DNA of 26,489 bases from the IMG/VR virus record IMGVR_UViG_3300046468_000370, positions 1 through 26,489 of that record. One strand, 5' to 3'. The stretch comes from a virus. A program made the translations under genes and the position numbers. Position 1 is the stretch's first letter; every line of letters begins with the position of its first letter. The notes beneath the pieces are model-generated. The model searched no databases. It saw only the letters and a program-made list of their open reading frames with translations, and was not told where the DNA came from. This document shows, piece by piece, positions 5,668 to 24,432 of the stretch.

Positions 5668-7020
5668 TTAATTATTTACTTTTGAAATTAGTTCTTGCGC
5701 AAATTCTGACGCTTCGGTTTCGGCTTCAACCAAACTTGCAACCGTGTCACCGCCGTCAACCCTTGGCAAGTTAGCCATCGCACGCACTTCGTTCAATGTT
5801 AATGATTCAAGTATTTTATTCGCAAGCAATGGTGACATCGCTGAAAGTATTTCGGCGGTTTGATTGACTTGACTATTGTCACCCTCGACAATAACGTCAC
5901 CGATAATTTGATAACCATTGATTTGAAATTTGCCTTTTGTGTCAGTTATTTGACAAAGCGTTTGACCAAGGTTTTCCATGATGTCACGAAGTGGGAAAAC
6001 AACATTTTTTTCCCAAATGCCGTAACTCATTTCTAATTCTTGCGCATTACCCAACGAACCCGCAACCTTGATTCCCATGATTGACGGGTTGATTTTGTGA
6101 GCAAAACAAATCGAATCTTTTAATTCTTTTGCCGTTTCTGTGAATAGTTTGTCGTTTTGATTTGTCGGTGCGTTTACTACTTCGGGAGTATTTTCAAAAC
6201 CGTCACCCGTTAAAACTCCGACTTTCCCCGCATTTTCTGCGCCCTCGTTCCCTTTCAATCCATCAATAAAACTTTGTTGTTCTTCTTTTGAACCGAATCG
6301 TTTCGGGCGTCGTATAAAGACCGACGGAAAGATTGATTGTTGTATGTTGTTTTTGTGTAGGAATGACATTTCACCATCAAGGAAACACCAATTCAACGCA
6401 CTTGAATACGTTGGTATTGGATAAAAGTCCTGACCTGGTGCATCGTCTTGCATTGTATAAAGCACCTCACCGTAATTTCCCGCGGGGTTGTATGGTTCTA
6501 TTTGTCTACGCTTGCGACCGTTTGCCCAATCGTCAGAGTATTCAAACGAACCGTCAAAGTTGTATCGTATTTTTGACGGATCGATTCGTGTCATCTTTAA
6601 AAATTTTCCACTATCCGAAAAATTCATCAATATATGAATGCGTCGGTGCAAATAAAAGTCACGACACAAAACGTTAAACATCGAATTCAATTTGTTTTTA
6701 CGCATGAACACACGAACGTCGATGTTGTTCTTTGCACTATCTTCGACGGGTTGCACGTCTATACCCCCACCCATCACGGCGTTAGTTGTGAAGTCTACAA
6801 TTGAACCATGCAACGGGCTTGTGAAATACATTTGATTGAGCAGTTGCGGAAAAAGATTGTCTTGCCCGAAATAAATAACACCCGTAGATGACCATCGAGA
6901 TTGAACAAACGGAAGTGATAGGTTTCCTTTTCCAACTTTCAAAAATGGCGTGTTGAATGCTTGCGGTGATGTTCTTGCACCCGATCCGTTTGCGTTAAAT
7001 TCTATTCCAAAAATCTTCAT
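5668..7020 (-). CDS. phage portal protein
   Basis: A 450-aa protein with the layout of HK97/SPP1-like portals, the dodecameric ring at one capsid vertex through which DNA passes. Visible features are an N-terminal wing segment (GVIYFGQDNLFPQLLNQMY, then LHGSIVDFTTNAVMGGGI, the usual start of the portal core); a beta-rich region with RRIHILMNFSDSGKFLKM and TRIDPSKIRYN; a segment SICFAHKINPSIMGI at about 311-325 typical of the portal stem/clip region; and a helical C-terminal crown. It overlaps the preceding 109-aa gene by 4 bp (ATGA) and is followed within a few bases by the adaptor gene. In this phage it lies downstream of the capsid gene in transcription, the reverse of the usual order. Confidence 0.88.
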   Translation of the reverse strand: MKIFGIEFNANGSGARTSPQAFNTPFLKVGKGNLSLPFVQSRWSSTGVIYFGQDNLFPQLLNQMYFTSPLHGSIVDFTTNAVMGGGIDVQPVEDSAKNNIDVRVFMRKNKLNSMFNVLCRDFYLHRRIHILMNFSDSGKFLKMTRIDPSKIRYNFDGSFEYSDDWANGRKRRQIEPYNPAGNYGEVLYTMQDDAPGQDFYPIPTYSSALNWCFLDGEMSFLHKNNIQQSIFPSVFIRRPKRFGSKEEQQSFIDGLKGNEGAENAGKVGVLTGDGFENTPEVVNAPTNQNDKLFTETAKELKDSICFAHKINPSIMGIKVAGSLGNAQELEMSYGIWEKNVVFPLRDIMENLGQTLCQITDTKGKFQINGYQIIGDVIVEGDNSQVNQTAEILSAMSPLLANKILESLTLNEVRAMANLPRVDGGDTVASLVEAETEASEFAQELISKVNN

Positions 7021-7346
7021 AAATATATATCTGTTAAAATGTCATCACTTGACGAAACGGTCACGATTCCAAAGTTCACGGGTTCACCTACGACGTCGCT
7101 GATTGTCGGGTTGATTGTTTCCGATTGATATGCAGTATAATAATATTCACCTTGTCGCAATGTGGTCGTCAATTCAAATTCATTGTATCGTTCCTTTGTC
7201 GTGCTTGTGTCGGTCGGTGTAAATGATTCGACAACCTCATCCGCAACATTGAAAATTTGAATCAAATAGTGCGGATTTGCAACCGTTGTTTTTGGTGCAA
7301 ATGTCACAACGATGCTTGTTGATATGTCCTTTTCAAGTTTTATCAT
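7017..7346 (-). CDS. small beta-rich protein of the connector region
   Basis: A 109-aa protein that looks like a single beta-sandwich: HYLIQIFNV, then RYNEFELTTT, then GEYYYTAYQS, then PVNFGIVTVS, with short turns between. I associate this pattern (a YLIQ/F strand, RYN-F, and a GEY-Y-Y strand) with uncharacterised proteins encoded near capsid and portal genes of Bacteroidota phages. It may be a head decoration or minor structural protein, but there is no direct evidence. It is the first gene of the connector/lysis block: the motif WACAAAA-N11-TACTATAC lies directly before its ATG at 7346, and a terminator precedes that. Its stop overlaps the portal start. Confidence 0.65.
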   Translation of the reverse strand: MIKLEKDISTSIVVTFAPKTTVANPHYLIQIFNVADEVVESFTPTDTSTTKERYNEFELTTTLRQGEYYYTAYQSETINPTISDVVGEPVNFGIVTVSSSDDILTDIYL

Positions 7347-7376
7347 ATCAGTATAGTATAGAAACCGAATTTTGTT
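7347..7376 (-). promoter_or_regulatory. putative phage late promoter, copy 1 (connector/lysis block)
   Basis: On the minus strand AACAAAA (7376-7370), an 11-nt spacer, TACTATAC (7358-7351), and 4 nt (TGAT) lead directly to the ATG at 7346. Two other copies at 10478-10507 and 18771-18800 keep exactly the same spacing. If TACTAT is the -10 hexamer, a start six or seven bases later would fall at the ATG, giving a leaderless mRNA. Confidence 0.75.
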
Positions 7377-7380
7377 TCAT

Positions 7381-7407
7381 AAAAAAAGGGATGAACATTG
7401 TCACCCC
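7381..7407 (-). terminator. intrinsic terminator after the capsid/tail-tube genes
   Basis: On the minus strand GGGGTGA, a 6-nt loop and TCATCCC form a stem with one mismatch or bulge, followed at once by seven T. It lies 33 bp after the stop of the gene at 7440, and the next putative late promoter begins a few bases beyond it, so it separates two transcription units. The stem is imperfect, so it may be leaky. Confidence 0.65.
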
Positions 7408-7439
7408 CTCTTTTGATTGTTTGATTTTGTGGTTTCTTG

Positions 7440-7967
7440 TTACGGTGTGTAAGTGGTTACACTCGTGTAAACCGTTGCGTCAACTTCTTTTGCAAGTGAA
7501 TCATCTTCACCGTAAAAAGCGACATCGTATTTTGAACCGTCAGCACGGTTTTTCCCTGAACCGCCTCCAATAGTTTGAAGTTGTACATATGGAAAATACC
7601 AAATTAGACCGTTCAAATCTTTTACAAAAACGTAAAGGTAACGAGAACCCGCGCCCAAAATATTCAACGCTTTTGATTTTTCTTTTTCTCGTCTTGGTAG
7701 CATGATTGAAACCGTTCGGTTGACAACGTCAACACCAGCTTCGATTCCGTCTTGCTTTTCATCTGTATATTCGGAATATCTTCTTTTGACTTGTATGTTG
7801 ATAGGGGCTTCCGCAACGGTCATCGCAGTTATTTCCCACGTTGATTCGTCTGCGGTGATTGAAGATACATCCTCCATGTCACCAACATAAATCTCGTCAA
7901 TGCCTCCCGAATTTCGTGCGCACCCAAGAGCAATCTCTTCGAGTGTCGTGCAGTTTTGTATTGGCAT
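7440..7967 (-). CDS. probable major tail tube protein
   Basis: A 175-aa, almost entirely beta-type protein: an N-terminal segment with ARNSGGIDEIYVGDMEDVSSI, a strand WEITAMTV, a long charged central hairpin (VKRRYSEYTDEKQDGIEAG then VDVVNRTVSIMLP), and a C-terminal pair (SRYLYVFVKDLNGLIWYFPY then KYDVAFYGED). Tail tube proteins are beta-sandwiches with a long hairpin of this kind. It is the first gene after the major capsid gene, and no better tube candidate exists in the window. It is separated from the capsid gene by a UUCG-loop hairpin and followed by a terminator. A head decoration protein is the main alternative. Confidence 0.52.
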   Translation of the reverse strand: MPIQNCTTLEEIALGCARNSGGIDEIYVGDMEDVSSITADESTWEITAMTVAEAPINIQVKRRYSEYTDEKQDGIEAGVDVVNRTVSIMLPRREKEKSKALNILGAGSRYLYVFVKDLNGLIWYFPYVQLQTIGGGSGKNRADGSKYDVAFYGEDDSLAKEVDATVYTSVTTYTP

Positions 7968-7993
7968 ATTTTTAAAATTTAAAGTTTGTAAAT

Positions 7994-8015
7994 AGGGCGG
8001 AACGAATCCCGCCCT
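7994..8015 (-). other. UUCG-loop hairpin after the capsid gene
   Basis: On the minus strand AGGGCGGGA and TTCCGCCCT form a 9-bp stem with one G-U pair closing on a TTCG tetraloop, 23 bp after the capsid stop. What follows (ATTTACAAAC) is not a U-run, so it is probably not an efficient terminator in this direction. The plus-strand side has TTTATT. It may act as a partial terminator that lowers expression of the next gene, or as a 3' stability element for abundant capsid mRNA. The arm AGGGCG is shared with the hairpin at 65-88. Confidence 0.6.
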
Positions 8016-8038
8016 TTATTAATTAATTTGTTTTATGC

Positions 8039-9013
8039 TTATGCACAATCCAATCCGTAAGTAACCCACTCGTTTTCGTCAGCAGTTGCCGAGTCATTTA
8101 AGAAGTTGAAACCAACTTTGAAGTCAGAACGCACACGGATAGTTTTGTCACCCGTTGTTTTTGACAAGTCGATAACGTTTAAATCTTCAGGATCAGAAAC
8201 TAAGTCAGCAAGGAAAACATAATTATCAGCTTTTGAAACTGTCATTGTGTTGTCTGACATTCCCGCGCATACTGTTAATTTATATCCAAGGAAGTTCAAT
8301 TCAGGATCTTGCGCCGTGTAAACTTCTGCTGATTGAAGTGCAACCGCTAAACGATAAGCATCCGCAACGTTTTGAGAAACACACCAAAGTACATCTTCTT
8401 TTATTTGCTTGATTCGTGTCGGTAGTGCATTGTATACCGAAGTCAATTCAGCGATAACCGTTGAACTGTTGATTGTTGTTCCTACCAATCGTTGAGCCGT
8501 TGGAATTGAAGCACCACAAAGTTGCTTTTCAAGACCGTCACAAAGACCGATAAACGTTGATGGTACGTCTGGATCGAAAGTCACCGCCGTGTCACCTTGC
8601 CACGTTAAAACCTCTAAAAGGTCAGAAACGTTTCTTGATAGTTCAGAGTACATGAATGTTGCGTATTCCGCTGGCATCCACTCACCGTTTGATCCCGCTT
8701 TCATCCAATCCGCAAGGAATGATGTTTCCATTTCATACATACACAAATCAGTTCCGATTTGAATTTTGCATGGTTCCATTTCTTTTGCACCAAGCGTTGA
8801 ATTTCCTCCTTGATAATCACAATCTCCAGGAAATAACAAAGTACCGAAAGAAAGATTTCCGATTTTTGTTTTCTCTTTGATGTTCAATACCTGACGGAAA
8901 TATGAACTTGATCTGTTTTCCAAAAGTGCTTTAGTATAAAATTCTTTTGGGTTTACTTGCAACAACGCTTCGGTTGCTACAGTCATTGACATTTTTAAAT
9001 CTCTTGTTGCCAT
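8039..9013 (-). CDS. major capsid protein
   Basis: A 324-aa protein placed between the protease-scaffold gene and the probable tail tube, as a major capsid protein would be. Its composition fits an HK97-fold coat protein: a polar N-terminal arm, a region with a glycine-rich, loop-like segment (GDCDYQGGNSTLGAK, about 63-77) and strands IQIGTDLCMYEME; a helical spine with YSELSRNVSDLLEVLTW (about 126-142); and a C-terminal axial-domain pattern of helices and strands (IKEDVLWCVSQNVADAYRLA, NFLGYKLTVCAGM, TIRVRSDFKVGFNF). Nine or so cysteines are unusual for a capsid protein but no disulphide pairing can be inferred. There is no obvious N-terminal delta domain; scaffolding appears to be supplied by the adjacent gene. 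Confidence 0.82.
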   Translation of the reverse strand: MATRDLKMSMTVATEALLQVNPKEFYTKALLENRSSSYFRQVLNIKEKTKIGNLSFGTLLFPGDCDYQGGNSTLGAKEMEPCKIQIGTDLCMYEMETSFLADWMKAGSNGEWMPAEYATFMYSELSRNVSDLLEVLTWQGDTAVTFDPDVPSTFIGLCDGLEKQLCGASIPTAQRLVGTTINSSTVIAELTSVYNALPTRIKQIKEDVLWCVSQNVADAYRLAVALQSAEVYTAQDPELNFLGYKLTVCAGMSDNTMTVSKADNYVFLADLVSDPEDLNVIDLSKTTGDKTIRVRSDFKVGFNFLNDSATADENEWVTYGLDCA

Positions 9014-9040
9014 TTTTGTTTTATTTTTGATTTTTGATTC

Positions 9041-10477
9041 CTACTTTTTTGACGCGCTAAATTTCGCAAATTTTGCAAGTTTTTCACCCATCAAGTCGAT
9101 GCGACCTTTTGGTTCGTTGCTTGATAGTTGCGTGTTGCTTTCGTCAGCCACTTCAACGTCTTCGCTTGCTTCAGCTTTCACGTCTGCAACCATGTCGTAC
9201 AATTCTTTGAACTTCGCGTCGATTTCTTCTTTTGAATAATACGCTTCCATTTCTGCTTCGTCAGCCATTTCAACTTTGACTTCTTCTTTTTCTTCGTCAG
9301 CGTATTCCGTTTTGGCTTTTGCTTCAACAACCACTTCATCTTCTTTTTCTTCGGTCATTTCAACGTTAACCTCTTCTTTTTCTTCAGTTGCTTCAACAAC
9401 TTCTTCGCTTGCGCTTTCGTCAATTGGAACGATTGAAACAATCTTGTTGCACTTGTATTCGTTTTCTGTTCCCTCGTTTTCGATTACCTCCTCAACGGTG
9501 TAAACAGAGTCACCAATTGTATGAACGCCAATCGGCAATTCAATGTGCGCATGAGGTTTCCCGTCTGCTTCCATTTCGACTTCTTTTTTTTCGTCTATCA
9601 TTTTACTATTATTTATGGATTTTAGTTTTTCAATTGCCCAATTGACACCTGACGTGCCACCCCAACCAAGCCAAGCAACGCGCCCCGCATCTTTCCACGG
9701 TGTCGATTTATTTTCTTCGCCGACTTCGGCGTTCTTTTCGTGACGCTTAAATGATGCCATTCTCGCGATTGTGTCACGGCTGATATTCTCACCCTTGCTG
9801 ATTTGGTTTGCACGAGTCCAACCGATGCGCCCCATTCCCTTAACTTCGTCACCGTATTTGTCGCGCCAATCTAAAACTTTTTGTGCGTTGTTCTTTGCGC
9901 TTTCGGGATAGTCGTTGTACGTTTCTTCAAGTTTGATTTCTGACATTTCCAACATCGCCGAATGACCATGAATTGAGAAACCCGTCAACCCTCGATTCAC
10001 ATAATCGTGATACACGTCTTTGTCGGTAAATTGCTGAACGGCAAACCAAGTCCCTTCAGGTACGTCGATTCCGTATTGCGTTTTTGATTTGTCGGTTTCG
10101 GGATTAGTCACAAGCCAAGTTTCTAATATATAAGCGGGAACGGTTTTGCTTTCGTCGTGTTCCTCATTGAATACTTGTTTGCCCGCTTGCTTTTCCATAA
10201 AGTCAACGAATACCGATTCAATGAATTCGGTTGTGACTTTGGCGTAGTATTCCTCACCCGTCAATTCGTCTTTTCGGTAAATGTTTCCAGGTGTTAAAAC
10301 GGGCGACGCAATTCGGTGCTTGATGTCGTCTTTGAAAAATACGTTTTTGGTTTGATCACTAAATGCAACGCCTTTGATTTGGATTGCGGGGTTTTCCGTG
10401 TTTGCTATTTGAAAGATTGCAAGTTCGGTATCTTCTTGATATTGTGGATCAATGGAAAGCGTATATGTTGGAATCAT
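9041..10477 (-). CDS. XkdF-like head maturation protease fused to a scaffold-like tail
   Basis: A 478-aa three-part protein. Residues 1-175 resemble the XkdF-type phage serine protease: EEHD with likely catalytic His107, then a strand pair with YILETWLVTNP and GIDVPEGTWFAVQQF, and GFSIHG with likely catalytic Ser168. Residues 190-288 form a distinct module (YPESAKNNAQKVLDW, RANQISKGE-ISRDTIARMASFKRH, AWLGWGGTSGVNWAIEKL). The rest (about 295-478) is highly acidic with VEVE/EEKEE repeats and a short helix, as in capsid scaffolds, ending in a basic tail. It lies 27 bp before the capsid gene and right after a putative late promoter. Cleavage of its own scaffold and possibly of the capsid is inferred from family knowledge. 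Confidence 0.8.
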   Translation of the reverse strand: MIPTYTLSIDPQYQEDTELAIFQIANTENPAIQIKGVAFSDQTKNVFFKDDIKHRIASPVLTPGNIYRKDELTGEEYYAKVTTEFIESVFVDFMEKQAGKQVFNEEHDESKTVPAYILETWLVTNPETDKSKTQYGIDVPEGTWFAVQQFTDKDVYHDYVNRGLTGFSIHGHSAMLEMSEIKLEETYNDYPESAKNNAQKVLDWRDKYGDEVKGMGRIGWTRANQISKGENISRDTIARMASFKRHEKNAEVGEENKSTPWKDAGRVAWLGWGGTSGVNWAIEKLKSINNSKMIDEKKEVEMEADGKPHAHIELPIGVHTIGDSVYTVEEVIENEGTENEYKCNKIVSIVPIDESASEEVVEATEEKEEVNVEMTEEKEDEVVVEAKAKTEYADEEKEEVKVEMADEAEMEAYYSKEEIDAKFKELYDMVADVKAEASEDVEVADESNTQLSSNEPKGRIDLMGEKLAKFAKFSASKK

Positions 10478-10507
10478 AACAATATAGTAAAAATGTGTAT
10501 TTTTGTA
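10478..10507 (-). promoter_or_regulatory. putative phage late promoter, copy 2 (head block)
   Basis: On the minus strand TACAAAA (10508-10502 on the plus coordinates, edge at 10508), 11 nt, TACTATAT (10489-10482), and TGTT lead into the ATG at 10477. The spacing is identical to the other two copies. The upstream half overlaps a TATTTTTG box read on the opposite strand. Confidence 0.72.
10498..10505 (+). promoter_or_regulatory. TATTTTTG box, possible promoter for the inverted gene pair
   Basis: TATTTTTG on the plus strand fits the Bacteroidota -7 consensus TAnnTTTG and lies 18 bp before the ATG at 10524. I see no convincing TTTG element 17-23 bp further upstream, so the promoter would be weak or activator-dependent. 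The late-promoter motif is absent in this orientation. The box shares bases with the upstream half of the leftward late promoter. Confidence 0.45.
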
Positions 10508-10523
10508 TTAAAAATTTAAAACT

Positions 10524-11078
10524 ATGTTAATTTTTAATCTTGAGGGTGAAGAATTTAAATGCCCAACAACGCCCGACGAAATGAGTCTTGCTCAATTCGA
10601 TGAAATAATTGCAATCAGCAATGACGAATCACTTGGATCAATTTCACGATGTTTTAAAATGCTTGAATTTTTTGGTGTTCCCGAAAAGGTTCTTGATAAT
10701 CTTTCACAAAAAGAATTCGTCGAGGCTTACAAAGCACTTGTCGATTATGAAATACCGATTGACATTGAAAAATCTATTGAAGTAAATGGGCGAACATACG
10801 AGGCGTATAACGGTGACGAATTTGAATTCAATGCCCGAACTATCGAATTGATTGAAATTGCTCAAATGAAAAATGACAATCGTTTTGCGTCGTGGGTGAT
10901 GGCAGTTGTTTACAAGGATGTTGATTTGTCTTGGACTGAACACAAAGACTGGAATCACATCAAACACAAAGCGAATTTATTTCGTAAGGAATTGACGGGT
11001 GCGCACGTCATTCCATTGTTGCCACGTTTGGCACGCCGACAAATGACACAATTAGAAGATGCAATTCAAAAAGATTAA
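10524..11078 (+). CDS. probable tail assembly chaperone, first of an inverted pair
   Basis: A 184-aa helical, soluble protein: a short beta-start (LIFNLEGEEFKCPTTPDEM), then SLAQFDEIIAI and helices through about 110, FASWVMAVVY, and a basic C-terminus with KANLFRKELTGAHVIPLLPRLARRQM. Small helical proteins with an initial ubiquitin-like strand pair and a helical remainder are typical of tail assembly chaperones, which hold the tape measure protein while the tube forms. It lies between the tail-block and head-block genes, and its downstream partner overlaps it by 20 bp in the +1 frame. It is on the plus strand, opposite almost every other gene. The call rests on context and general appearance rather than a diagnostic motif. 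Confidence 0.55.
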   Translation: MLIFNLEGEEFKCPTTPDEMSLAQFDEIIAISNDESLGSISRCFKMLEFFGVPEKVLDNLSQKEFVEAYKALVDYEIPIDIEKSIEVNGRTYEAYNGDEFEFNARTIELIEIAQMKNDNRFASWVMAVVYKDVDLSWTEHKDWNHIKHKANLFRKELTGAHVIPLLPRLARRQMTQLEDAIQKD

Positions 11079-11727
11079 TTGGTCAGACGTTTCGATTCGT
11101 GACTTTCAAGAACTTCACGACATCATGAACGCAACCGACTTAACACCGACGGGTTTTGTGTTGGAAGTTGCTGACCTTTTCCATGAATTTGACGACGACC
11201 TTTCTGAAAAGGATTTGAAAAGCCTGAAAGATTCGATTTCATTTGTATCGACACCTTGCAAACCAAAAGCAAAACAATCGGTCAACGGTAAACCGATGAT
11301 GCAATTTAGTCGAATGCCGTTGTCGAACTTTATTGAGTTGGATGTCACGCTTGTTAAAAATGATTTTTGTGATGCCTTACCGATTTGTGCGCAAATTATT
11401 TATGATTTGGGTGACGAAGTTTTTGACTTGCCCGTGACCGATGTGATTGGCGCGGTTTTAAGTTTTGCCGAATACCGTCAAAATGTATATTCAAAATATC
11501 CAAATGTTTTCATGGTTGACGACGAAGATGACATTGACGAAACTGACGACGTTGAAGCTGACGAACCAAAACAAGACGTCGCAACGGGATGGTTGAAAAT
11601 AGTTTTTTTGATGGCTGAAGGTGATTTAACAAAATACAACGATATTATTTCATCACCTCACATTTTGGTTTTCAATTGGGCGTCGTTGTCGGATAGTCTA
11701 AAATCAAAAAAGGCGTCAGGTAATTGA
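11059..11727 (+). CDS. probable tail assembly chaperone partner, second of the inverted pair
   Basis: A 222-aa acidic protein beginning inside the end of the previous gene (ATG at 11059, 20-bp overlap). It has helical N-terminal segments (VSIRDFQELHDIMN, PTGFVLEVADLFHEF), a hydrophobic middle (LPICAQIIYDLGDEVFDLPVTDVIGAVLSFAEYRQNVY), a very acidic linker around 155-173 (DDEDDIDETDDVEADE), and a C-terminal helix. A two-gene overlapping arrangement is characteristic of chaperone G/GT genes, but here the second frame is closed by a TAG just upstream, at 11053-11055, so it more likely uses its own ATG by translational coupling than a long frameshift fusion. Its stop abuts the stop of the opposing gene exactly. 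Confidence 0.52.
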   Translation: MQFKKINWSDVSIRDFQELHDIMNATDLTPTGFVLEVADLFHEFDDDLSEKDLKSLKDSISFVSTPCKPKAKQSVNGKPMMQFSRMPLSNFIELDVTLVKNDFCDALPICAQIIYDLGDEVFDLPVTDVIGAVLSFAEYRQNVYSKYPNVFMVDDEDDIDETDDVEADEPKQDVATGWLKIVFLMAEGDLTKYNDIISSPHILVFNWASLSDSLKSKKASGN

Positions 11728-12105
11728 TCAAGGTTGATTCATCAAAATGATTTCCGACGGTGACAATGTGATGTTGTCAAAGTTCAAAAGCGGGTATTCA
11801 TTTTTAAGATATGCGGAAAAGTAAATTCGGAAACGGTCGGTCGTGTTTGCAAATGACCGTGAATTGATGAAATCATTTGTCACCTGGAAACGTTCGTTCA
11901 AATAAACAAGATAAACTTCGGCGTAAACTTTGACCGTGAATGTGTAGTTTGCAGTCATAAACGACGCAACGTTGTAATCAATTTCGGCGGTGACGTCAAT
12001 TGACGAATAAAGCGCACCCGTGTCAAGTAATCCTTTTCGACGAATGTCATCTTTCAGTTTTCTTGTGAATCGGCGATCCACGTCTTTGGGTGTTCTAAAT
12101 GCCAT
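11728..12105 (-). CDS. gp10-like tail completion/connector protein, second copy
   Basis: A 125-aa protein with a basic N-terminal helix (DVDRRFTRKLKDDIRRKG), the pattern LLDTGALYSSIDVTAEI (26-42) and beta-strands YTFTVKVYAEVYLVYLNERF. A basic helix, then TG-L-SS, then strands is the arrangement of HK97 gp10-like connector proteins that help close the head-tail joint. The preceding gene shows the same arrangement (VRTGRMKNT), so the pair are likely distant paralogues or partners. Its ATG overlaps the stop of that gene by one base (TAATG). Its own stop is immediately adjacent to the stop of the opposing plus-strand gene. Confidence 0.5.
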   Translation of the reverse strand: MAFRTPKDVDRRFTRKLKDDIRRKGLLDTGALYSSIDVTAEIDYNVASFMTANYTFTVKVYAEVYLVYLNERFQVTNDFINSRSFANTTDRFRIYFSAYLKNEYPLLNFDNITLSPSEIILMNQP

Positions 12106-12440
12106 TATTCAAATTGTCTGTCAATTAACCAATCAATCCACTTGTCATAAACTTTATCCAATGCCTCTTGAACTCGTGGTCGATTGAATGTTTTGTCGGT
12201 TATGTTTCGCGGTGCAATGTGTCGCGTTCCCTTATCTACAAAGATATAGTAAAATTGCGAATTCACGTCTTTGATGAAAAAGATGTCACGACCGAAGTCA
12301 TAACCGACTTTGACTTTTGTCGTGTTCTTCATGCGCCCCGTTCGAACCGCGCCGACCTCAACAATTTGTTTTTTGATTTCGGCGTTTATCGTTCGGGTAC
12401 ATGCCCCCAATTGCGATATAAATAATTGACGTGAACTCAA
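12105..12440 (-). CDS. gp10-like tail completion/connector protein, first copy
   Basis: A 111-aa protein: N-terminal helix (LGACTRTINAEIKKQIVEVG), AVRTGRMKNTTKVKVGY (31-47), strand-turn YYIFVDKGTRHIAPRNI (64-80), and a C-terminal helix RVQEALDKVYDKWIDWL. The RTGR and VDKGTRHI-PRNI features are typical of HK97 gp10-like proteins. No ATG is available upstream or near the N-terminus. The likely start is the TTG at 12440, which overlaps the tape measure stop as TTGA, so coupled initiation at a non-ATG codon is inferred. The next ATG would remove the first helix. Confidence 0.62.
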   Translation of the reverse strand: MSSRQLFISQLGACTRTINAEIKKQIVEVGAVRTGRMKNTTKVKVGYDFGRDIFFIKDVNSQFYYIFVDKGTRHIAPRNITDKTFNRPRVQEALDKVYDKWIDWLIDRQFE

Positions 12441-14638
12441 AGGGTGCTATTTTCAAAAATTTGCGCTTGCTTATCCTTTGACGTGCTGAATTGATCCAAT
12501 GAAATGACCGCTTGCACCGTCTGTTGTTCTTGCCCTTGTGCTTGGAAGAATGTATTTAAACCGTTTGCCTGACCAAACAATTCAAGGTTCGGTGTTGCTT
12601 GTGCTTGTGCGCCACCACCGACACCGCCACCGACATCACCGCCACCGCCACCGCCACCGCTTGACGGCGTTGTTGTTGAACCAAATTTTGTTTTGGATAT
12701 TGATGCAACATTGACAAGACCTTTTGCAATAGCTATTCCCGACGCCACTTGCGCACGAATCAAAGAAGACGGATCACCAGGAATAAATTGTGAGGTGAAT
12801 GCTTTTTGCGCACCGACAATTGTGTCAATTGTAGCCGTACCGATTGACATTGCCTTGTTAATTTGAAACGCCTTTTTTTGTGATGCTTCACTTTTACCCG
12901 CAAATAAATTCGCGACACTACCCAAAACTGACAATGTGTCTTTCGCTGAATTCACTTTAAAATCTTTCAATTCTTCTTCGCGCTTTTTCTCTTTATCTTT
13001 TGCGTCGATGTCGATTTGTTCCAAGTCGTCAACAAGTTGTTGTTTTAATTTCTTTTCAATGTCTGCGGTCAATAAACCCTCCGATTCAAGTTGTGCAATT
13101 CTTTGTTCGAAATCGAATTGTGCTTTGACTTTCTTTTTTTCGTCACCAGCTTCCATTAATGAAATTTCAAGTGCGTCTTTTTTAGCGTAGAAATCAGTCA
13201 ACTTTTTTAATTCATCTTGATCCTTTTTTTCGTTGTCTTCTTTTATTTTTTCGATTCGTTTTTGTTCGTTGTCAATGATTTCTTGATTTGTAATTTTCAA
13301 CAATTCAGTATATTCTTTGGCGTATTTTTTTCTTTCTGCCCTTGTCAAATCTTCGTTTGTTTTCAAGTCTTTAATAAGCCTGATGTATTTTGTACTATTC
13401 AAAAGAATTTCTTTGTGAACACTATCTTTTATTTTTTCAAATTGCAAATCTTGTAGTTCACGCTGGGCATCAATTCTGTTTTTTGCGTATTCTTTTGCGT
13501 TTGCGATTCGTTCTCTTTGTAGATCTTTTTGCGTTTCTGTTTCGTTAATGTCCAAAAGCATTCGATCGGTCGTTAATTCTGCAAGTGCTTGTGTCGCTTC
13601 GTGAAGATTGTCGGATTGAAGTTGATATATTTCGGTGTTTTTACTTGCAAATGTCGACAGGGCTTTTAATATTTTTGTTTGCAATTTCACTTCAGCTTCT
13701 GCTAATTTGATTTTTTTATCAAGTAATTTTCTTTCAAGTTCAATCGTGTTTTCACCTCGCGCCTTTCTAATTTTTATTTCACGACTCATTGAATTCGTAA
13801 CGGCTTCAAATGCACGTTTTTCGGCTTTCGCTCTAAGTTCGGCGTTCTTCTTTGCTTTCTCCGCGCTTTCTTCACCCGCAAAGTCAGTCAAACCAATCCA
13901 ATCAAGGAAGTCTTTAATTGCATCAACAACGACTTTAATGACCGCACCAAGCATTTCAAAAGCCACCTTGATGACGCCCAACGAATCAAGCAATTTATAA
14001 ATACCGACCGCAATTGCCGTGATGACACCAATCAACAAAAACAAAGGATTTGTCAAAATCGCTTTCCCCAAACTTATAATCGTACTACCTAATGACTTGA
14101 TTGAACCGATTGCCTTGCCGAATGTCATTTTGCTGACATTGTTTGAAAGCGTCGTTGCTTGCTTGCTTGCCGTGTCAAAATCCATTCGTGCCAATGACGC
14201 GCCGACCTCACCAAGACCGTCACCGAAAACCGAAAACCCTTTGTTGTCTGCAAGAATATCAACTTGCTTGTCAACCCCGATAATGGTTTGACGCATTGAA
14301 ACCGCTTCTTTTTGTAAAGCTGCAAATTCTTCGGTGTTTGCTTTGCCCGCAAACGCGAGTTCATACATTCTATCTTCAAGTTCACCAAGACGCGACGAAA
14401 GGGGCGCGGTGTCTTTATAAACGTCATCGAACTTTTTGCCCAGGTCAAACTTATCCGTTGCGGTGTTGATGTCTTTGACTTGATCTTCGGTTTGTTTCAA
14501 CGCTTTATTCAAGCGATCGACTTCTTTCGGATCGGTCGCCGTTTTCAATTCGTTGCGCATCTTTAAAATTTCCGCACTCAAAGAACGAATTCCGTTCAGG
14601 TTTGGTCTTATTTCTACGTCAATTACTTTGTCAGCCAT
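12437..14638 (-). CDS. tape measure protein
   Basis: A 733-aa protein that sets tail length by spanning the tail tube before DNA ejection. It has coiled-coil-rich ends (residues 15-60, 90-130, and the long charged helical stretch 270-570), a hydrophobic segment around 185-222 (LGSTIISLGKAIL, then FLLIGVITAIAVGIYKLL) as in tape measures that insert into the host membrane, and a small-residue-rich second hydrophobic region at 590-660. Near 660-690 a polyglycine hinge (GGGGGGG-DV-GGG) is coded by CCACCG repeats. At about 1.5 angstroms per residue it implies a tail near 110 nm. It is followed by coupled gp10-like genes and preceded by tail-tip genes, the reverse of the usual tape measure to tail-tip order. 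Confidence 0.88.
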   Translation of the reverse strand: MADKVIDVEIRPNLNGIRSLSAEILKMRNELKTATDPKEVDRLNKALKQTEDQVKDINTATDKFDLGKKFDDVYKDTAPLSSRLGELEDRMYELAFAGKANTEEFAALQKEAVSMRQTIIGVDKQVDILADNKGFSVFGDGLGEVGASLARMDFDTASKQATTLSNNVSKMTFGKAIGSIKSLGSTIISLGKAILTNPLFLLIGVITAIAVGIYKLLDSLGVIKVAFEMLGAVIKVVVDAIKDFLDWIGLTDFAGEESAEKAKKNAELRAKAEKRAFEAVTNSMSREIKIRKARGENTIELERKLLDKKIKLAEAEVKLQTKILKALSTFASKNTEIYQLQSDNLHEATQALAELTTDRMLLDINETETQKDLQRERIANAKEYAKNRIDAQRELQDLQFEKIKDSVHKEILLNSTKYIRLIKDLKTNEDLTRAERKKYAKEYTELLKITNQEIIDNEQKRIEKIKEDNEKKDQDELKKLTDFYAKKDALEISLMEAGDEKKKVKAQFDFEQRIAQLESEGLLTADIEKKLKQQLVDDLEQIDIDAKDKEKKREEELKDFKVNSAKDTLSVLGSVANLFAGKSEASQKKAFQINKAMSIGTATIDTIVGAQKAFTSQFIPGDPSSLIRAQVASGIAIAKGLVNVASISKTKFGSTTTPSSGGGGGGGDVGGGVGGGAQAQATPNLELFGQANGLNTFFQAQGQEQQTVQAVISLDQFSTSKDKQAQIFENSTL
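12611..12661. repeat. CCACCG-type microsatellite in the tape measure gene
   Basis: The plus strand reads as repeated CCACCG/CCGCCA triplets coding for a glycine-rich hinge (GGGGGGG-DV-GGG) near residue 665 of the tape measure. Such runs are prone to slippage by replication errors in units of three or six, which would keep the frame and change only linker length. Confidence 0.7.
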
Positions 14639-14641
14639 ATT

Positions 14642-17356
14642 TTATAGTTTATGGGAGTGTATAATGTTCCAAATTCCGTTGTTCGCAACAACTTTCAAGC
14701 TTTGGTCTTTTGACAATCGCACGTTTGCGGATTGGTCAATTGATGAAACCGACGCAACAACCTCGTTTCCACCTTGATTCACGTCTTTAATGATTAGACT
14801 TTCGCCTTCATACAAATCGGGATCGGGCAAAGTCAAAGCGATTCCCGTGTCATCCAAATAAACAATTTCAACTTCGTCAGGGTTTACCGTCATGCTTGTT
14901 GTGATTTGTGCGGAAGTGTATTTTTTTGATTCGTTTAGTTCGGGTATCTTTTCACCGTTTACATAATAACCCGATTCGGTCACGATTTGGTCATTTCCAA
15001 TCACGACACCTTGCACATTTTGCCCGATTACGTTACCCGTTCCGACGACGCGGGCAAGACCTTGTGAATAGTTTATATTATTGATATCGTAAACGTCAAG
15101 AATGATTGCGTTGATTGGCGGGTTTGGATCAACCGTTGTTCCTCCGTCAGTCACGTCAAACGTCGGGAGTGAAACCTCTTCGTCGGTCGTAATCAATTCG
15201 ACCTTTGTCAACCCCGCTTTGTTTGCATTGTAGTCAATCACTTTGTTAATATTCCAATATGCGTTTCTTGTGAAAATTTTATCGTTTAGTTTGATGCTTG
15301 CGATGTCGGCACTATTCAAATCAAACATTGCGGTCAGCATTTTGCCCGAATTGATTTGCGACATTGAACGACGGAAATGCAAGTTGAACAAATTGTTGTT
15401 TGTCAAATTGATTCCAGGATAGAAATAGTAATCACAAACGGCAAAATTAATGTCAACCGTTGGGTTGTAATGGTCATCGAAATGCGAAACCGTCGGGTAT
15501 GTTGTAATGTTTGCGATTCCCGTTTGACCAAAGTCATAAATATTGTAATTGTTGCAAGTGCTTGCACCGTTGTGCAATAGTATTCGAATGTTGTTTTTTG
15601 GCGCACCCCCAACCATTGACGGAACAATTGCGTTGTTTGGTGCGTTCAACGTCATCGGAGTAGGTGAAAATATCAATTCAAGTTTGTCGGTTTTTTGCTG
15701 AAATTCAGAATCAAAAATGAATTCGGCTTGACCGTATATTTTATTGATTGTGTTTTTGTACGTCGAATTAAAAACGTCTTTGTCTTCTTTGTATGTGAAA
15801 ATCTTTCTTTTGCTTCCGAGTTCAGGCAAGAATTTAATCAATTGATTTTGCTTTTTGTCAATCTTCTTTTCCCAATTCAACGTACTGCCTTGGTCATAAA
15901 ATGCGTCACGCGGTTGATAGATTATTTTATTCGGGTTGTTTGGATCGGGGTAAGCCATCAAAAAAGCCATATTGCAAACCGACTTGATGAAATCTTTTTG
16001 TTTCACTTTCTTCGGTATGTACAAATTCATGTCTTGCTCAAAACCGAATCCCGTCGTGTTTGCGGTCGTTTCAATTTTTATGTTGACTTGATTCACGTCA
16101 ATTCGAGGGTTGACCGTCACGTTGCTACCTGATGGCAATTGACTATCTTTCCATTGTAAAAAAGAAAGCGGAACACCAAAAACCGATTGTGCTTGATTAG
16201 TGTCAAGTTCAAATGTTAAAACGTCAGTAGGTAAAACGTTGCCGATTGGAATGTTGACCGTTGCCGTTGATGTTCCGATTGTTGTGTCACCATTTGAAAT
16301 TGGTGATTGATTCACGGCAAAAGGAATCCCCGAAGTGCCTAATGTAATATTAGGATTTACCACTTGACCTTGCGCAATCAATGTTGTTCCGTTCTTATAT
16401 ACTTTCCAATCACCCAAAAATCGAATTGCTTGGTTTGGAAATAGGGGTGACGGTGCAAGGTTGACAAGGTAAGCATCACCCCCACTTGTATTGTTAAGAA
16501 TATAGTCAAGATCGATTTCAACGTTCAGGTTGATACCTTGACCGCCTGACAAATATATAGGTACGTCATATGCACCCGTTGACGGCGTGAATAGGTTTGC
16601 GTCATCTAATGCCTCCGACCATCCTGAAATTGTTCCACCACCGCTTGAAAATGACGACTTGTTTGCATGAACGTCATAGTTGTTGTCAATCAATGGGGCT
16701 TCACCGTTGTAAGGTATCACCAAATTGTCAAAGATTGCCCAATCAATCACGTCGTATGAAAAACCGTTTGTCGCATGGATTTGGTCAAAATAGTGTTTAA
16801 CATATATCGCGGGGCGAAAGTCTGTGAGCAAATAGGAATTTGTATCGTTCACTCCCATAGGATAAACATATCCATCCGTCACGTCATTTGTAAACGATGC
16901 AACGACGTTCGTTGAACTATATGTATGATTCAAATATGTGAAATCCAAATCAGTCAATTCCTTGCCTCCGATACGGGTAAACAAGTCACGTTGTGCCGAC
17001 TTGACCAAGATAACATAATCCCCATCTTGTTGCGTTGCGCTTGTGTTTTGTGATTCGTTTATTTCAACCAATTGCAAAAAAGCATCCTCAACAATGACTT
17101 CACCGTTTTGAATCACCTCGCATTGTACCTTTGCGTTGAAATCAAATTCAAACGACGTCGCATTGATGTCAAAAAGCTGACCAAGAATTTGATGATTGTT
17201 GTCACTCCATGTTGCAATCAATTGCTTTGAGAATGTACCGCCCCGTTTTGATACGTCACGAATATCCGCAATACCTAAATTGATCGAGCATGATGTACCT
17301 TGCTTTAGGTAAATGTTGCCATTTGCCGTTTTGATGTGTGCCGTTTTACTATCCAT
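14642..17356 (-). CDS. large tail-tip / baseplate hub-like protein
   Basis: A protein of about 904 aa that I take to be the tail-tip hub from its size, beta-rich composition and place between the Dit-like gene and the tape measure. The N-terminus (ADIRDVSKRGGTFSKQLIA) resembles the first segment of tail-tip proteins of Bacteroidota phages. The middle contains KKVKQKDFIKSVCNMAFLM and a segment with YQPRDAFYDQG, as in the hub core of Tal/gp27-like proteins. The last 85 residues form a separate fibre-type beta domain (VYLDDTGIALTLPDP, GESLIIKDVN, VVANNGIWNIIHSHKL). I chose the ATG at 17356, which overlaps the previous stop by 8 bp; a TTG 21 bp upstream is the alternative. No peptidoglycan hydrolase motif is obvious. 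Confidence 0.65.
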   Translation of the reverse strand: MDSKTAHIKTANGNIYLKQGTSCSINLGIADIRDVSKRGGTFSKQLIATWSDNNHQILGQLFDINATSFEFDFNAKVQCEVIQNGEVIVEDAFLQLVEINESQNTSATQQDGDYVILVKSAQRDLFTRIGGKELTDLDFTYLNHTYSSTNVVASFTNDVTDGYVYPMGVNDTNSYLLTDFRPAIYVKHYFDQIHATNGFSYDVIDWAIFDNLVIPYNGEAPLIDNNYDVHANKSSFSSGGGTISGWSEALDDANLFTPSTGAYDVPIYLSGGQGINLNVEIDLDYILNNTSGGDAYLVNLAPSPLFPNQAIRFLGDWKVYKNGTTLIAQGQVVNPNITLGTSGIPFAVNQSPISNGDTTIGTSTATVNIPIGNVLPTDVLTFELDTNQAQSVFGVPLSFLQWKDSQLPSGSNVTVNPRIDVNQVNIKIETTANTTGFGFEQDMNLYIPKKVKQKDFIKSVCNMAFLMAYPDPNNPNKIIYQPRDAFYDQGSTLNWEKKIDKKQNQLIKFLPELGSKRKIFTYKEDKDVFNSTYKNTINKIYGQAEFIFDSEFQQKTDKLELIFSPTPMTLNAPNNAIVPSMVGGAPKNNIRILLHNGASTCNNYNIYDFGQTGIANITTYPTVSHFDDHYNPTVDINFAVCDYYFYPGINLTNNNLFNLHFRRSMSQINSGKMLTAMFDLNSADIASIKLNDKIFTRNAYWNINKVIDYNANKAGLTKVELITTDEEVSLPTFDVTDGGTTVDPNPPINAIILDVYDINNINYSQGLARVVGTGNVIGQNVQGVVIGNDQIVTESGYYVNGEKIPELNESKKYTSAQITTSMTVNPDEVEIVYLDDTGIALTLPDPDLYEGESLIIKDVNQGGNEVVASVSSIDQSANVRLSKDQSLKVVANNGIWNIIHSHKL

Positions 17357-18770
17357 TGATCGGATCGGTGTTTGCAATTCGTATTTTTATTTCCATTCGT
17401 TGCAACCTCTTTTGACGAAGTCGTGGAACGTTGTAACTTTTGTCAACGATTTCAGCAGAATACCAAACGCCGTCAGTTTGCAAATATACTTCAGGCGATG
17501 TTATCAGTTGCTTGAAAAGGTTCAATTCGCTTTGTCGCTTAATGTGGTTCGTTCTAAGCGTCAAAGTTTCAACCGCTGAAATGTTGAGGTGTTTCCCGCC
17601 TCTTTCAAGCGTATCGTACCCCCATTGAAATTGGTTGACCTCTCCGACAAGTTCTTGTTGAAATTCCGTTCGTTTGACCGCGCCGTTTAATTGGTCGTGA
17701 AGTTGAAAAGCGTATGAAAGCATTGAACCCTTACGATCAAGGAACGCAACAACGTAGTCGTTTATCGCGCAACGTCGGTCAAGGTGCAATGTGTAGGTTT
17801 GTGACAATGGCAAAAATACGTCGTCAACAACATAGAAATCGTAAGATGTGATTGAATCCGTCACAAGGTCACCCGTTCCGCTGACCAAAGTCAACGACGC
17901 TTGCAAGTCAGCACCCGAAACCATCACTTGATCAATGAACCCGCCCGAATCAATTGGTTTACGATAAACCGTTCCCGCACTATTCACAAACTCCATGAAA
18001 TAAATTGTTTCGGTTTGTGTTAAACAATTCACAAAAATATCTTGGAAAGGTGTGATTGTGAAGTCGTCAGGCAAGTCGGTCAATAATTTGCTATCATTAC
18101 CAGTCAAATGATATTGCGTTTCGTCGTATTGTGTCCAACCTTGAAACGTGAACGCGCCGTTGTACACAAATTTATTTCTCAATGCTTGCAAGTCACGGAA
18201 AATTGTTTTTCGGTTGTCGGCGTAATTGACCGAACCGTTGATTGTTGGGTTCGTTATTTCTGACCACAATGAGTTGACCGTGAAATCAGTCGTTCCATTT
18301 ACGGCAACAACAACAAACAATCCTTGTAATGATGGATTTGCAACACCTCCGTCAGCTTGGTCGATGACAACCGCATCACCAACAACAAACGAATGCGTTG
18401 TTATAATTTTAACAAAATTGACATTTTGCAAAAGGGTGTTCGAATAGTCGATTGAAACAATGTATTCTTCGCCAACCTTGACGTCATATTGATAATATGA
18501 TTTTGACGCATCAAAGCACGTTGAATTTGTCGGATCAAAGTCATGTGACACAAACCCTTGCAATAATTTTGAAAGGTTTTGTTTGCCGTAACCGTTCACC
18601 ACTTCGGGCGAAACCTTACGTTCTGCGATTTTGTTTGTCGTTCCCGCTTCATATACGTCAAAGATATATCTGAATCCAGGTTCATTTTGATTCGTGGAGT
18701 CTGCAATGTACCACAACGGATTGAATGCGGGTGAAATTTCGGTAGGTTTTGCGATGTTTGTGATTGCCAT
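17349..18770 (-). CDS. distal-tail-like structural protein, first gene of the tail block
   Basis: A 473-aa beta-rich protein. The start (ISPAFNPLWYIADSTN, then PGFRYIFDVYEAGT, then KVSPEVVNGYGKQNLSKLLQGFV, about residues 12-74) and the C-terminal part (SYAFQLHDQLNGAVKRTEFQQ, NHIKRQSELNLFKQLITSPEVYLQ) have features I associate with tail proteins encoded beside the hub in Bacteroidota phages. A distal tail (Dit-like) or tail-tip role is the best reading. It follows the terminase gene by 30 bp, and those 30 bp are the putative late promoter, so it opens the late tail transcription unit. Its stop overlaps the hub start by 8 bp. No enzymatic motif is visible. Confidence 0.6.
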   Translation of the reverse strand: MAITNIAKPTEISPAFNPLWYIADSTNQNEPGFRYIFDVYEAGTTNKIAERKVSPEVVNGYGKQNLSKLLQGFVSHDFDPTNSTCFDASKSYYQYDVKVGEEYIVSIDYSNTLLQNVNFVKIITTHSFVVGDAVVIDQADGGVANPSLQGLFVVVAVNGTTDFTVNSLWSEITNPTINGSVNYADNRKTIFRDLQALRNKFVYNGAFTFQGWTQYDETQYHLTGNDSKLLTDLPDDFTITPFQDIFVNCLTQTETIYFMEFVNSAGTVYRKPIDSGGFIDQVMVSGADLQASLTLVSGTGDLVTDSITSYDFYVVDDVFLPLSQTYTLHLDRRCAINDYVVAFLDRKGSMLSYAFQLHDQLNGAVKRTEFQQELVGEVNQFQWGYDTLERGGKHLNISAVETLTLRTNHIKRQSELNLFKQLITSPEVYLQTDGVWYSAEIVDKSYNVPRLRQKRLQRMEIKIRIANTDPING

Positions 18771-18800
18771 ACTTGTATAGTAGAAAAACGGCGTTTTGTT
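18771..18800 (-). promoter_or_regulatory. putative phage late promoter, copy 3 (tail block)
   Basis: On the minus strand AACAAAA (18800-18794), an 11-nt spacer, TACTATAC (18782-18775) and AAGT run straight into the ATG at 18770. The motif fills the entire 30-bp gap between the terminase stop and this ATG. The other copies at 7347-7376 and 10478-10508 have the same layout. Confidence 0.78.
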
Positions 18801-19964
18801 TTACCAACTGATTGACAAGGTTTCTTCGAAATCGTTTGTGCTATATTTTGAAATCCACATATCTGCGTACCTGATTGCATCCATTGCGTCGTCATTTGTT
18901 TTATGGATTTCCTTGTCGCGGATTTCACCGTTGATTTTTTTGTGCTTATATGCTTTGTTTTCTCGTTGGATATTCTTCGCTTTGATGTCAATGTAGTTGA
19001 TGCACGAACGAACGATTGTGATGCCCGCTTGCACGTCTTTGTTTGCGTTTAAACAATAGTAACCAGCTTGACGTAGGTCGGCAATCAAATCGGGGCGTGC
19101 ATGGTCGCAAATGATTTCGATGTCCTTTTCAATTCCCATTTCTTCAAATTTGGGAATCATGTCATTTGGTTTCAAATAGCTTTCATAAATGACTTCTTCG
19201 TAATACCGTTCATTTTCATAGTACCAAACGCGCACCAACGACAAAGGGTGAACATAACCAAAATCTAAGCCATAGCAATATTGTGTGAATCGTTTTGGGC
19301 GTTCGGTCAGCACCTCCCATTTTTGATAAACATTTTCCCGACTGACGGCGTGCAATCCAAGCGCATAAATATCGTATAAAATTGGATCGGTTCGTTTTAA
19401 ATCTTCAATTTGGTTTGCGATTGCACGCTCAAGGAATGGATTGTCTTTGTAGGTTGAGTGTATCACCTTGATTTCATCGGGCGGAAGTTCGTCAATCCAT
19501 CCGACGACCTCCGACGGGTTGTAGTCAAAAATGATTTTTTCAGTCGTTCGCATATTTAGTTGTACAAAATCTTCACCAAACAAATCGTTGCATTCGTTCA
19601 CCCAGCATTTGCGACGCTTTCGCCCCCTCAACTTTTGCTCGTTGTCTACCGAAAAGAATTCAACCCGTGCGCCGTTTGGAAAGGTGATGTGATGTTCGGT
19701 TTTGTTATGGGCAACGGTATTGTACAAATTCATTTCAGAAAGCACCGTGATGAAGTCACGAAGTACGGTAGCACGCAAAGCGGGAAAGGTCTTTCTAACG
19801 ATTGACCAATCCGCCCCGCTATCCGTCAAACAATCAAGGATGACACATTGACAAAGGGAAAACGTTTTTGATGACCGTGAACCCCCACGGTTTTCAATAA
19901 ATCGAAACGGCGAAAACAACGCATCCCAATTTTTTTCAAAAACAATTGTTCCCTTGATATTCAT
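18801..19964 (-). CDS. terL: terminase large subunit
   Basis: The packaging motor ATPase and endonuclease that drives DNA into the prohead and cuts it. Visible motifs: Walker A-like GGSRSSKT at 27-34; Walker B-like CWVNECND at 120-127 with Glu124 as likely catalytic glutamate; coupling motif FDYNPS at 146-151; nuclease aspartates at LDFGY (Asp234), ICDHARPD (Asp287) and TNDDAMDAIRYAD (358-362). At 387 aa it is short for a terminase (about 400-600 aa is usual) but all motifs are present, so it is a compact Terminase_3-like enzyme, not a fragment. Its ATG overlaps the small-subunit stop by 4 bp. It appears to belong to the middle unit, since the first late promoter lies immediately after its stop. 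Confidence 0.93.
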   Translation of the reverse strand: MNIKGTIVFEKNWDALFSPFRFIENRGGSRSSKTFSLCQCVILDCLTDSGADWSIVRKTFPALRATVLRDFITVLSEMNLYNTVAHNKTEHHITFPNGARVEFFSVDNEQKLRGRKRRKCWVNECNDLFGEDFVQLNMRTTEKIIFDYNPSEVVGWIDELPPDEIKVIHSTYKDNPFLERAIANQIEDLKRTDPILYDIYALGLHAVSRENVYQKWEVLTERPKRFTQYCYGLDFGYVHPLSLVRVWYYENERYYEEVIYESYLKPNDMIPKFEEMGIEKDIEIICDHARPDLIADLRQAGYYCLNANKDVQAGITIVRSCINYIDIKAKNIQRENKAYKHKKINGEIRDKEIHKTNDDAMDAIRYADMWISKYSTNDFEETLSISW

Positions 19965-20425
19965 TTTTCCGATTCTCCAGGGCGCACGATTGTCACGTTG
20001 ATAGCTTCAATTTTTTCACCGTCGGTTGTGACGTCAATCTTGTCACCCCATTTCCTTGCGCGTAATTTACCCAAAACAAATTTTAAGGTGTCAACCTTTA
20101 ATCGGTCACGCTGAATGTGATTCGTTCCGACGTTTACGTTGCCGACAATCTGACCGTCTTTGCGATTATCATAAGCAACCTCACGAAGTTGTTCTTCTAA
20201 AAAGTCAAGTTGTTTTTCACGCGCGCGCACGTATCGTTGATGACGGGCGTTATATTCTTCTAAATTCGTCAATCTTTGTTTCGTTGTTTCGCCGTCTTTG
20301 TAATTATAGAAAGCGCGACCGCTTGAATTTGATTCTTTGCAAAGGGTGTTGATACCTTTGTACGTGGTTTCTAATTCAATACATATTTGTTCGAATACTT
20401 CGTCGGTCATTTTTTTAGTTGCCAT
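19961..20425 (-). CDS. terS: terminase small subunit
   Basis: A 154-aa DNA-recognition subunit of the packaging terminase. It has an N-terminal helix-turn-helix region (residues about 8-42, with KGINTLCKESNSSGRAFYNY), a helical oligomerisation segment (YVRAREKQLDFLEEQLREVAY), and a C-terminal conserved stretch with IQRDRLKVDTLKFVLGKLRARKWGDK (about 103-128). That last stretch is typical of a family of small terminases that precede TerL in many phages. It overlaps terL by 4 bp. It should bind the packaging (pac/cos) site, which in many phages lies in or near the gene; no obvious cos-like site was identified here. Confidence 0.88.
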   Translation of the reverse strand: MATKKMTDEVFEQICIELETTYKGINTLCKESNSSGRAFYNYKDGETTKQRLTNLEEYNARHQRYVRAREKQLDFLEEQLREVAYDNRKDGQIVGNVNVGTNHIQRDRLKVDTLKFVLGKLRARKWGDKIDVTTDGEKIEAINVTIVRPGESEK

Positions 20426-21495: not shown

Positions 21496-21682
21496 ACCAT
21501 TCAAAAATAATTCGGTGATATATCTTGCGCTTTATGAACGTGCAAAACGAACACCCTTTGACGGGTATCTTTTTACTTTGATCGACTTGATTGTTGTATT
21601 CTTTTGCAAGAATTATCATTTGCGATTGATTGCGTTGCGCCGTGTCGCGATATTTTTCAAAAACATTAATTGGTTCGGTCAT
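21476..21682 (-). CDS. small unknown protein with CxxC motif
   Basis: From the ATG at 21682 this gives 68 residues: TEPINVFEKYRDTAQRNQSQ, a helix with MIILAKEYNNQVDQSKK, and a C-terminal segment with CSFC (46-49 by that start) followed by a basic patch and FEWYDAKGN. The CxxC pair could be half of a zinc site or structural only. The start overlaps the end of the preceding membrane-protein gene by 17 bp, and the end overlaps the sigma-like gene, so it is coupled on both sides. A GTG 45 bp upstream is an alternative start. It may be a partner of the sigma-like protein or of the membrane protein; neither is shown. Confidence 0.6.
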   Translation of the reverse strand: MTEPINVFEKYRDTAQRNQSQMIILAKEYNNQVDQSKKIPVKGCSFCTFIKRKIYHRIIFEWYDAKGN

Positions 21683-24397: not shown

Positions 24398-24424
24398 TTT
24401 TGTTTGTTTTTTTTTGGTTATGGT

Positions 24425-24432
24425 CAAATATA
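24425..24432 (-). promoter_or_regulatory. TATATTTG promoter box for the recombination operon
   Basis: TATATTTG on the minus strand, then ACCATAACCAAA, then an A-rich leader to the ATG at 24397. The box and the following 12 bases repeat those at 904-885 with only one difference, so the two promoters share both core and leader. The -33 region has no exact TTTG, so the upstream contact is weak by eye. Confidence 0.65.

Follow-up and report, generated by a model that had tools for sequence, protein, structure and literature searches.

In the window (the whole 26,489-base stretch of DNA analysed here, from a tailed phage), a phage-encoded ECF-like sigma factor probably directs the host RNA polymerase to three nearly leaderless late promoters, which head the tail, head and connector gene blocks. 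This reading is built on four observations: the sites themselves, the conservation of their positions in related phages, the coordinated drift of their sequences and the conserved presence of a sigma-like protein.

A preliminary description of this DNA reported three minus-strand copies of the motif WACAAAA-N11-TACTATAY-N4-ATG, identical in layout and each ahead of a block-opening gene. Scanning the window for the exact motif revealed precisely these three, all on the minus strand (18800-18768, 10507-10475 and 7376-7344, from the first motif base to the G of the ATG). Two of the coordinates given earlier were right, and the middle copy starts at 10507 rather than 10508. As had been claimed, the copies are beyond chance, with no exact match in 100 dinucleotide shuffles. 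When three mismatches were tolerated the bare motif had 12 matches against 4.8 expected, so only the three exact copies stand out. Each ATG is the start of an ORF (17349-18770, 9041-10477 and 7017-7346), and the sites are laid out as follows.

18775 to 18800, minus strand: candidate late promoter 1, with the WACAAAA box at 18800-18794, the box TACTATAC at 18782-18775 and, 4 nt on, the ATG at 18770
10482 to 10507, minus strand: candidate late promoter 2, with the first box at 10507-10501, TACTATAT at 10489-10482 and the ATG at 10477
7351 to 7376, minus strand: candidate late promoter 3, with the first box at 7376-7370, TACTATAC at 7358-7351 and the ATG at 7346

The genes around these sites are listed below.

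17349 to 18770, minus strand: tail gene, the first after the terminase genes, in the tail block, ahead of the tape measure protein
9041 to 10477, minus strand: head gene with an XkdF-like protease domain (protease/scaffold), headed by late promoter 2
8039 to 9013: probable major capsid gene, after the head gene
7017 to 7346, minus strand: connector gene, headed by late promoter 3 and followed by the portal gene (5668-7020)
18801 to 19964, minus strand: large terminase subunit
19961 to 20425, minus strand: small terminase subunit

Late promoter 1 lies immediately after the large terminase stop codon. A family search with the tail gene product returned no match. Elsewhere in the window, the protein encoded at 3846-4688 shares 72% identity with its counterpart in a near relative (L038), against 98-100% for its neighbours; from its sequence, it is possibly a receptor-binding protein.

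We scanned 2.9 million viral contigs for the exact pattern and found it in 23 stretches. All sites that head long ORFs of the window phage's genes are in near-identical contigs, so the exact string is specific to the window phage species. The remaining matches, one ahead of a 279-aa open frame and the others ahead of short frames, look like chance occurrences. Relatives were collected by a capsid-protein search, which identified 38 loci with the same gene order, and by a broader profile that added seven more; all are metagenomic contigs and several are incomplete. The capsid protein had no match among annotated phages, a terminase search of annotated phages returned relatives only, below 60% identity, and two scans of bacterial genomes found no related prophages.

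In the syntenic relative G1, the exact motif had no match with two mismatches. Aligning the upstream regions gene by gene brought out a two-box element, which in G1 reads AAC-N17-CTA[TA]AC-N4..6-ATG at the same three genes. At the same tail, head and connector genes, each relative has its own version of xACA-N14/15-(seven-base box)-N4..8-ATG. Recast in this way, the element of the window phage is (A/T)AC(A), 15 nt and the seven-base box ACTATAY; the extra AAAA and T of the original motif are partly kept among relatives. The preliminary description had proposed conservation in relatives of the same gene order as a check, and what is conserved is not the exact letters but the three gene positions, each with a phage's own two-box version. 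These versions are alike within a phage and unlike between phages (ACTATAY, CCTATTW, ACATTA, CGTTAC and others):

G1: AAC[AG]-N15-CCTA[TA]AC
G008: AAC[AG]-N15-ACTATAC
L060: TACA-N15-ACTATAA
L097: TACA-N15-ACTATAA, as in L060
G015: TTCA-N15-CCTATAC
L061: AACG or ATCA-N15-CCTGTA
G020: [TC]ACA-N15-[AC]CATT[AT]
L062: TTACA-N15-CGTTAC
L044/G010 subclade: GGACA-N14-CCTATT

In G020, for example, the sites are TACA-N15-ACATTA (tail), CACA-N15-CCATTT (head) and TACA-N15-ACATTA (connector). The 11-nt gap in the original motif had been read as too short for ordinary -35/-10 spacing. It is a product of how the boxes were drawn, and we abandoned it as a special spacing once the relatives were aligned: the recast boxes lie 15 nt apart (14 in one subclade), an ordinary and ECF-like -35/-10 spacing.

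All three orthologous genes carry a site in the window phage, G1, G008, G009, G010, G011, G013, G014 and G020, and in G015, L060, L062 and L097 a site precedes both of the visible genes. The copies are few, with three per genome that open structural gene blocks and keep to the same genes. With the spacing to the ATG included, phage-specific patterns found three sites in each of the five genomes tested, whereas first-order Markov shuffles gave 0-0.11 expected per genome. Extra pattern matches were limited to one each in G008 and G020 and four within genes to the loosest window pattern. Throughout the GGACA/CCTATT subclade, in which sites were picked by box sequence and every member site matched, all 11 box positions are invariant at the three genes while the spacer and the last 6 nt ahead of the ATG are variable. 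G025, the most distant relative, is AT-rich and has a looser, less sharp site at more genes than in the other phages: AAC[AG]-N15-ACAAT occurs at six gene starts among eight matches, with 0.8 expected. Both code and regulon may have widened in this phage, judging by these matches. Its sites include L104:2635, 4575, 8796 and 11812 as well as G025 17997 and 20882 (in L100), and are often followed by TATAT.

The two boxes drift together across genes. Among ten representative phages, head and connector upstream regions, scored by their best match to a 5-gap-7 template, agreed at 10.7 of 12 positions within a phage versus 8.9 of 12 between phages (p about 5e-5, the lowest value that 20,000 permutations can give). 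For the five phages with a tail site, the head-tail and connector-tail comparisons gave p=0.009 and p=0.008. Alignment of the boxes was initially done by eye and the template was picked afterwards; the label permutations are independent of the hand alignment. When 21 pairings of upstream regions were compared, head-connector alone was clearly significant (p=0.0002), and the 20 other pairings of the seven genes' upstreams showed no effect beyond one nominal p=0.045. Agreement within genomes combined with drift between them is as expected from one DNA-reading protein acting on all three sites.

Such drift would fit any trans-acting DNA-binding protein, including a repressor or activator for which the three sites serve as operators of promoters located elsewhere. 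We consider this highly unlikely, given that the boxes have no symmetry and that both their spacing and their location are as in a promoter at the ATG. Furthermore, there is no room for another promoter at the connector site, because a probable terminator lies directly before it. The terminator candidates near the head and connector genes are:

7381 to 7412, minus strand: probable intrinsic terminator, a hairpin and T run (-13.9 kcal/mol, z -3.5) directly upstream of late promoter 3
7994 to 8015, minus strand: hairpin GGGCGGGAUUCGUUCCGCCC between the capsid gene and the gene at 7440-7967, a possible terminator

Similar sequences with a hairpin and T run occur upstream of the connector gene in relatives.

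The nearly fixed, short distance to the ATG could also suggest an element that acts in translation initiation or otherwise on the mRNA. Bacteroidota do without Shine-Dalgarno sequences and rely instead on upstream preferences for certain bases, which would lend some weight to this idea (PMC6847099). We rejected it as most improbable on the grounds of the two-box spacing and of one copy in L061. The 14/15-nt distance between the boxes is conserved while the spacer is variable, only three genes per phage carry the element and the boxes drift in a coordinated manner between them. Moreover, the distance from element to ATG is 4-8 nt in relatives and about 18 nt in one copy, and for this reason we regard the element as a promoter rather than a translation signal. 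The exceptional copy is that of the head gene in L061 (L061:2076-2120), the sole clearly leadered copy among those examined.

The preliminary description also held the motif to be unlike the Bacteroidota TTTG promoter, and this is borne out: neither TACTATAY nor the versions in relatives contain TTTG. The published consensus for the phylum is TTTG/TANNTTTG (PMC6847099). At the three sites the sigma-A element TAHHTTTG is absent, and host-type boxes are found elsewhere in the same phages. Together with the A-rich upstream regions, the TAHHTTTG type of those boxes suggests that the host is probably a member of the Bacteroidota. An E. coli-type promoter scan yielded as many matches as shuffled sequences and none that would read the three sites. 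Two host-type boxes of the window phage are:

21913 to 21920, minus strand: host-type -7 box TATATTTG, 4 nt before the ATG of 21666-21908, the first gene of the run that includes the proposed sigma gene
10498 to 10505, plus strand: host-type -7 box TATTTTTG, for the divergent gene pair at 10524-11727

The box TATTTTTG and, on the opposite strand, the first box of late promoter 2 overlap; the host-type box is kept 16-18 nt before the divergent ATG in the window phage, G1, G008, G010, G013 and G015. At this head promoter, the late polymerase would compete with the host polymerase reading the divergent box, and the overlap (10482-10524) is possibly a built-in switch between the host and phage forms of the polymerase. 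The pair at 10524-11727 (plus strand) consists of two opposite-strand genes inside the structural block, an orientation kept in nearly all relatives; the genes have no clear family match and could encode tail assembly chaperones. Two other host-type promoters, at 875-919 and 24403-24447, both have TATATTTG as the box with CCATAACCAAA right after it, and are 80% identical over 45 nt. The shared CCATAACCAAA is possibly a common operator or leader.

The candidate reader of the three sites is encoded upstream of the small terminase gene, at a distance of a few genes:

20986 to 21495, minus strand: proposed phage sigma factor, 169 aa, ECF-like with two domains

Homologs with 27-50% identity to the window protein were identified in the relative contigs that span this region (G1, G008-G011, G013-G015, G020, G022 and the distant G025), with a partial match in G021. 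The shorter contigs with no homolog are fragments, and absence there is uninformative. ECF (group 4) sigma-70 factors have the sigma2 and sigma4 domains only, are about 20 kDa in size and lack sigma1.1 and sigma3. TIGR02937 (sigma70-ECF) aligned with residues 10-164 of the window protein (profile positions 7-163 of 165) at E=8e-5, with a score of 22.3 bits against the curated cutoff of 42.9. Within the family, six of 11 members matched TIGR02937 and five of 11 matched the phrog_1740 sigma factor; Pfam Sigma70_r2 matched one member only (E=0.059). For the 169-aa protein itself, the Pfam search gave no significant match, a search of annotated phages with it found no match and a PDB sequence search with the sigma alignment returned nothing relevant. 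Without a significant Pfam match and below the NCBIfam cutoff, this family is likely to be missed by automatic annotation.

The AlphaFold model (pLDDT 81, pTM 0.52) has two helical domains, at about residues 3-83 and 105-168, joined by a loose linker, and the C-terminal domain comprises four helices. Two domains and no more agrees with the ECF make-up. Nearly all of the 50 best PDB fold matches are sigma or sigma-like proteins, many of them ECF factors (RpoE, sigma-E, AlgU, SigW, SigH), with probabilities up to 0.99 and E values of 0.02 or worse; the poor E values may reflect the uncertain arrangement of the domains in the model. Among viral models, most of the best named fold matches are sigma factors. 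The sub-cutoff profile match and the fold similarity make it likely that the protein belongs to the ECF family. The sites agree with this assignment. An AAC-type -35 element is a hallmark of ECF promoters, which are in two parts with a spacer of about 15-17 nt, and the sites consist of an AAC, TAC or GGACA box (changed in some members, as in TTCA), 14/15 nt and a seven-base box. From its conserved presence and its type, we infer that the 169-aa protein is the putative reader of the sites.

Alternatively, the sites could be late promoters at which the 169-aa protein is a RinA/ArpU-type activator that aids the host sigma-A polymerase. Genes of this type are commonly found just upstream of terminase genes, the TIGR01636 (RinA) profile has a weak match to residues 97-160 and the C-terminal domain could suffice for binding to the upstream box. 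This match (E=0.033, 14.4 bits against a cutoff of 31.9) falls short of the RinA/ArpU profile, however, and the sigma profile match is much stronger and covers both domains. The fold matches are to whole ECF sigma factors. In addition, the downstream box departs from the host-like TAHHTTTG (CGTTAC, ACATTA, CCTATT), which is hard to square with reading by the host sigma. We therefore view an activator of this kind as unlikely.

With an ECF-like sigma factor as the reader, the host polymerase with a host sigma would act first and read the sigma-gene run from its host-type promoter. The ECF-like sigma (20986-21495) would then join the host RNA polymerase and recognise xACA, 15 nt (14 in one subclade) and the seven-base box (ACTATAY here). 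The three sites so recognised, heading the tail, head and connector blocks, would constitute the late regulon, with transcription starting on the A of the start codon or no more than about 3 nt ahead of it. In this scheme the role of the 169-aa protein as reader, its action as a sigma with the host polymerase, the late timing, the exact 5′ ends and the order of expression are inferred from the observations above.

The start point was placed by analogy. The -7 element TAHHTTTG of Flavobacterium johnsoniae spans -12 to -5 (PMC6847099), and the same register on TACTATAY-N4 puts +1 at the A of the ATG. Promoters of the phage 7-11 sigma factor, GTAAtg-(16)-aCTA, start transcripts 6-9 nt from the element (PMC8948821), a distance that leads to the ATG here as well. 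In relatives the seven-base box is followed by 4 to 7 nt, which predicts leaders of 0-3 nt, and the late mRNAs would be leaderless or nearly so. Leaderless starts are not universal in the clade, as the L061 head copy indicates by its position. Outside genes in seven of these phages, most host-type TAHHTTTG boxes are separated from the next ATG by 16-27 nt and five by 3-6 nt; since most are this far off, the near-leaderless position is typical of the late class and not of all promoters. In F. johnsoniae, 87% of predicted transcripts with a probable promoter have leaders >10 nt (PMC6847099). In combination, the comparison of relatives backs the earlier proposal that these promoters are a class specific to the phage, recognised by a phage factor and giving nearly leaderless mRNAs, with "late" and "leaderless" as predictions from sequence.

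More tentatively, it is plausible that this clade of probable-Bacteroidota phages has its own, previously unrecognised ECF-like sigma family with drifting promoter codes and a late class that is leaderless by design. If so, the switch to the phage sigma may bring a switch in the mode of translation as well, in a phylum in which leaderless mRNAs appear rare, and leaderless translation would become testable where Shine-Dalgarno sequences are not used. The 169-aa sigma-like gene was previously unannotated. About ten related phages would form a natural series of joint change in one sigma factor and three promoters, and thereby a direct route to matching sigma residues with the promoter bases that they read. 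Orthogonal sigma/promoter pairs would also become available for Bacteroidota, where promoters are unlike those of E. coli.

Among known systems, RinA/ArpU proteins are late-gene regulators in phages of Gram-positive bacteria and share with the present protein a gene near the terminase genes; they differ in that the 169-aa protein matches them weakly and in its C-terminal half only. Our literature search, incomplete in coverage, found no relevant report on late promoters or sigma factors in Bacteroidota or Flavobacterium phages. TA-led genes are similar in that leaderless mRNAs are marked by a -10-like box close upstream of the start codon (TANNNT, about 10-12 nt ahead of it; PMC3160421). Unlike the sites described here, they are ascribed to housekeeping-sigma promoters and are common in Actinobacteria and Deinococcus-Thermus; in Bacteroidetes/Chlorobi, TA-led leaderless genes were found in one of 37 genomes surveyed (PMC3160421). 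The phiEco32 gp36 protein, of ECF type, is likewise a phage sigma factor with few promoters (PMC8948821, PMC4281155), but it recognises a single element, tAATGTAtA, with no -35, and a small partner protein inhibits host sigma-70 transcription. In phage 7-11, the sigma factor SaPh711_gp47 works with the host core polymerase on late promoters of two parts (GTAAtg-(16)-aCTA) that stand where a few gene blocks open, as proposed here; that phage is phiEco32-like, infects Salmonella and has eight promoters, and the word "leaderless" does not appear in the paper (PMC8948821). Promoters of 7-11 and phiEco32 occupy similar positions and have different sequences (PMC8948821), making this pair a two-phage precedent for the drift reported here, and the closest one. 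The logic is the same in the present phages, which belong to another phage group; their promoter codes form a graded series, and transcription is predicted to start at the ATG.
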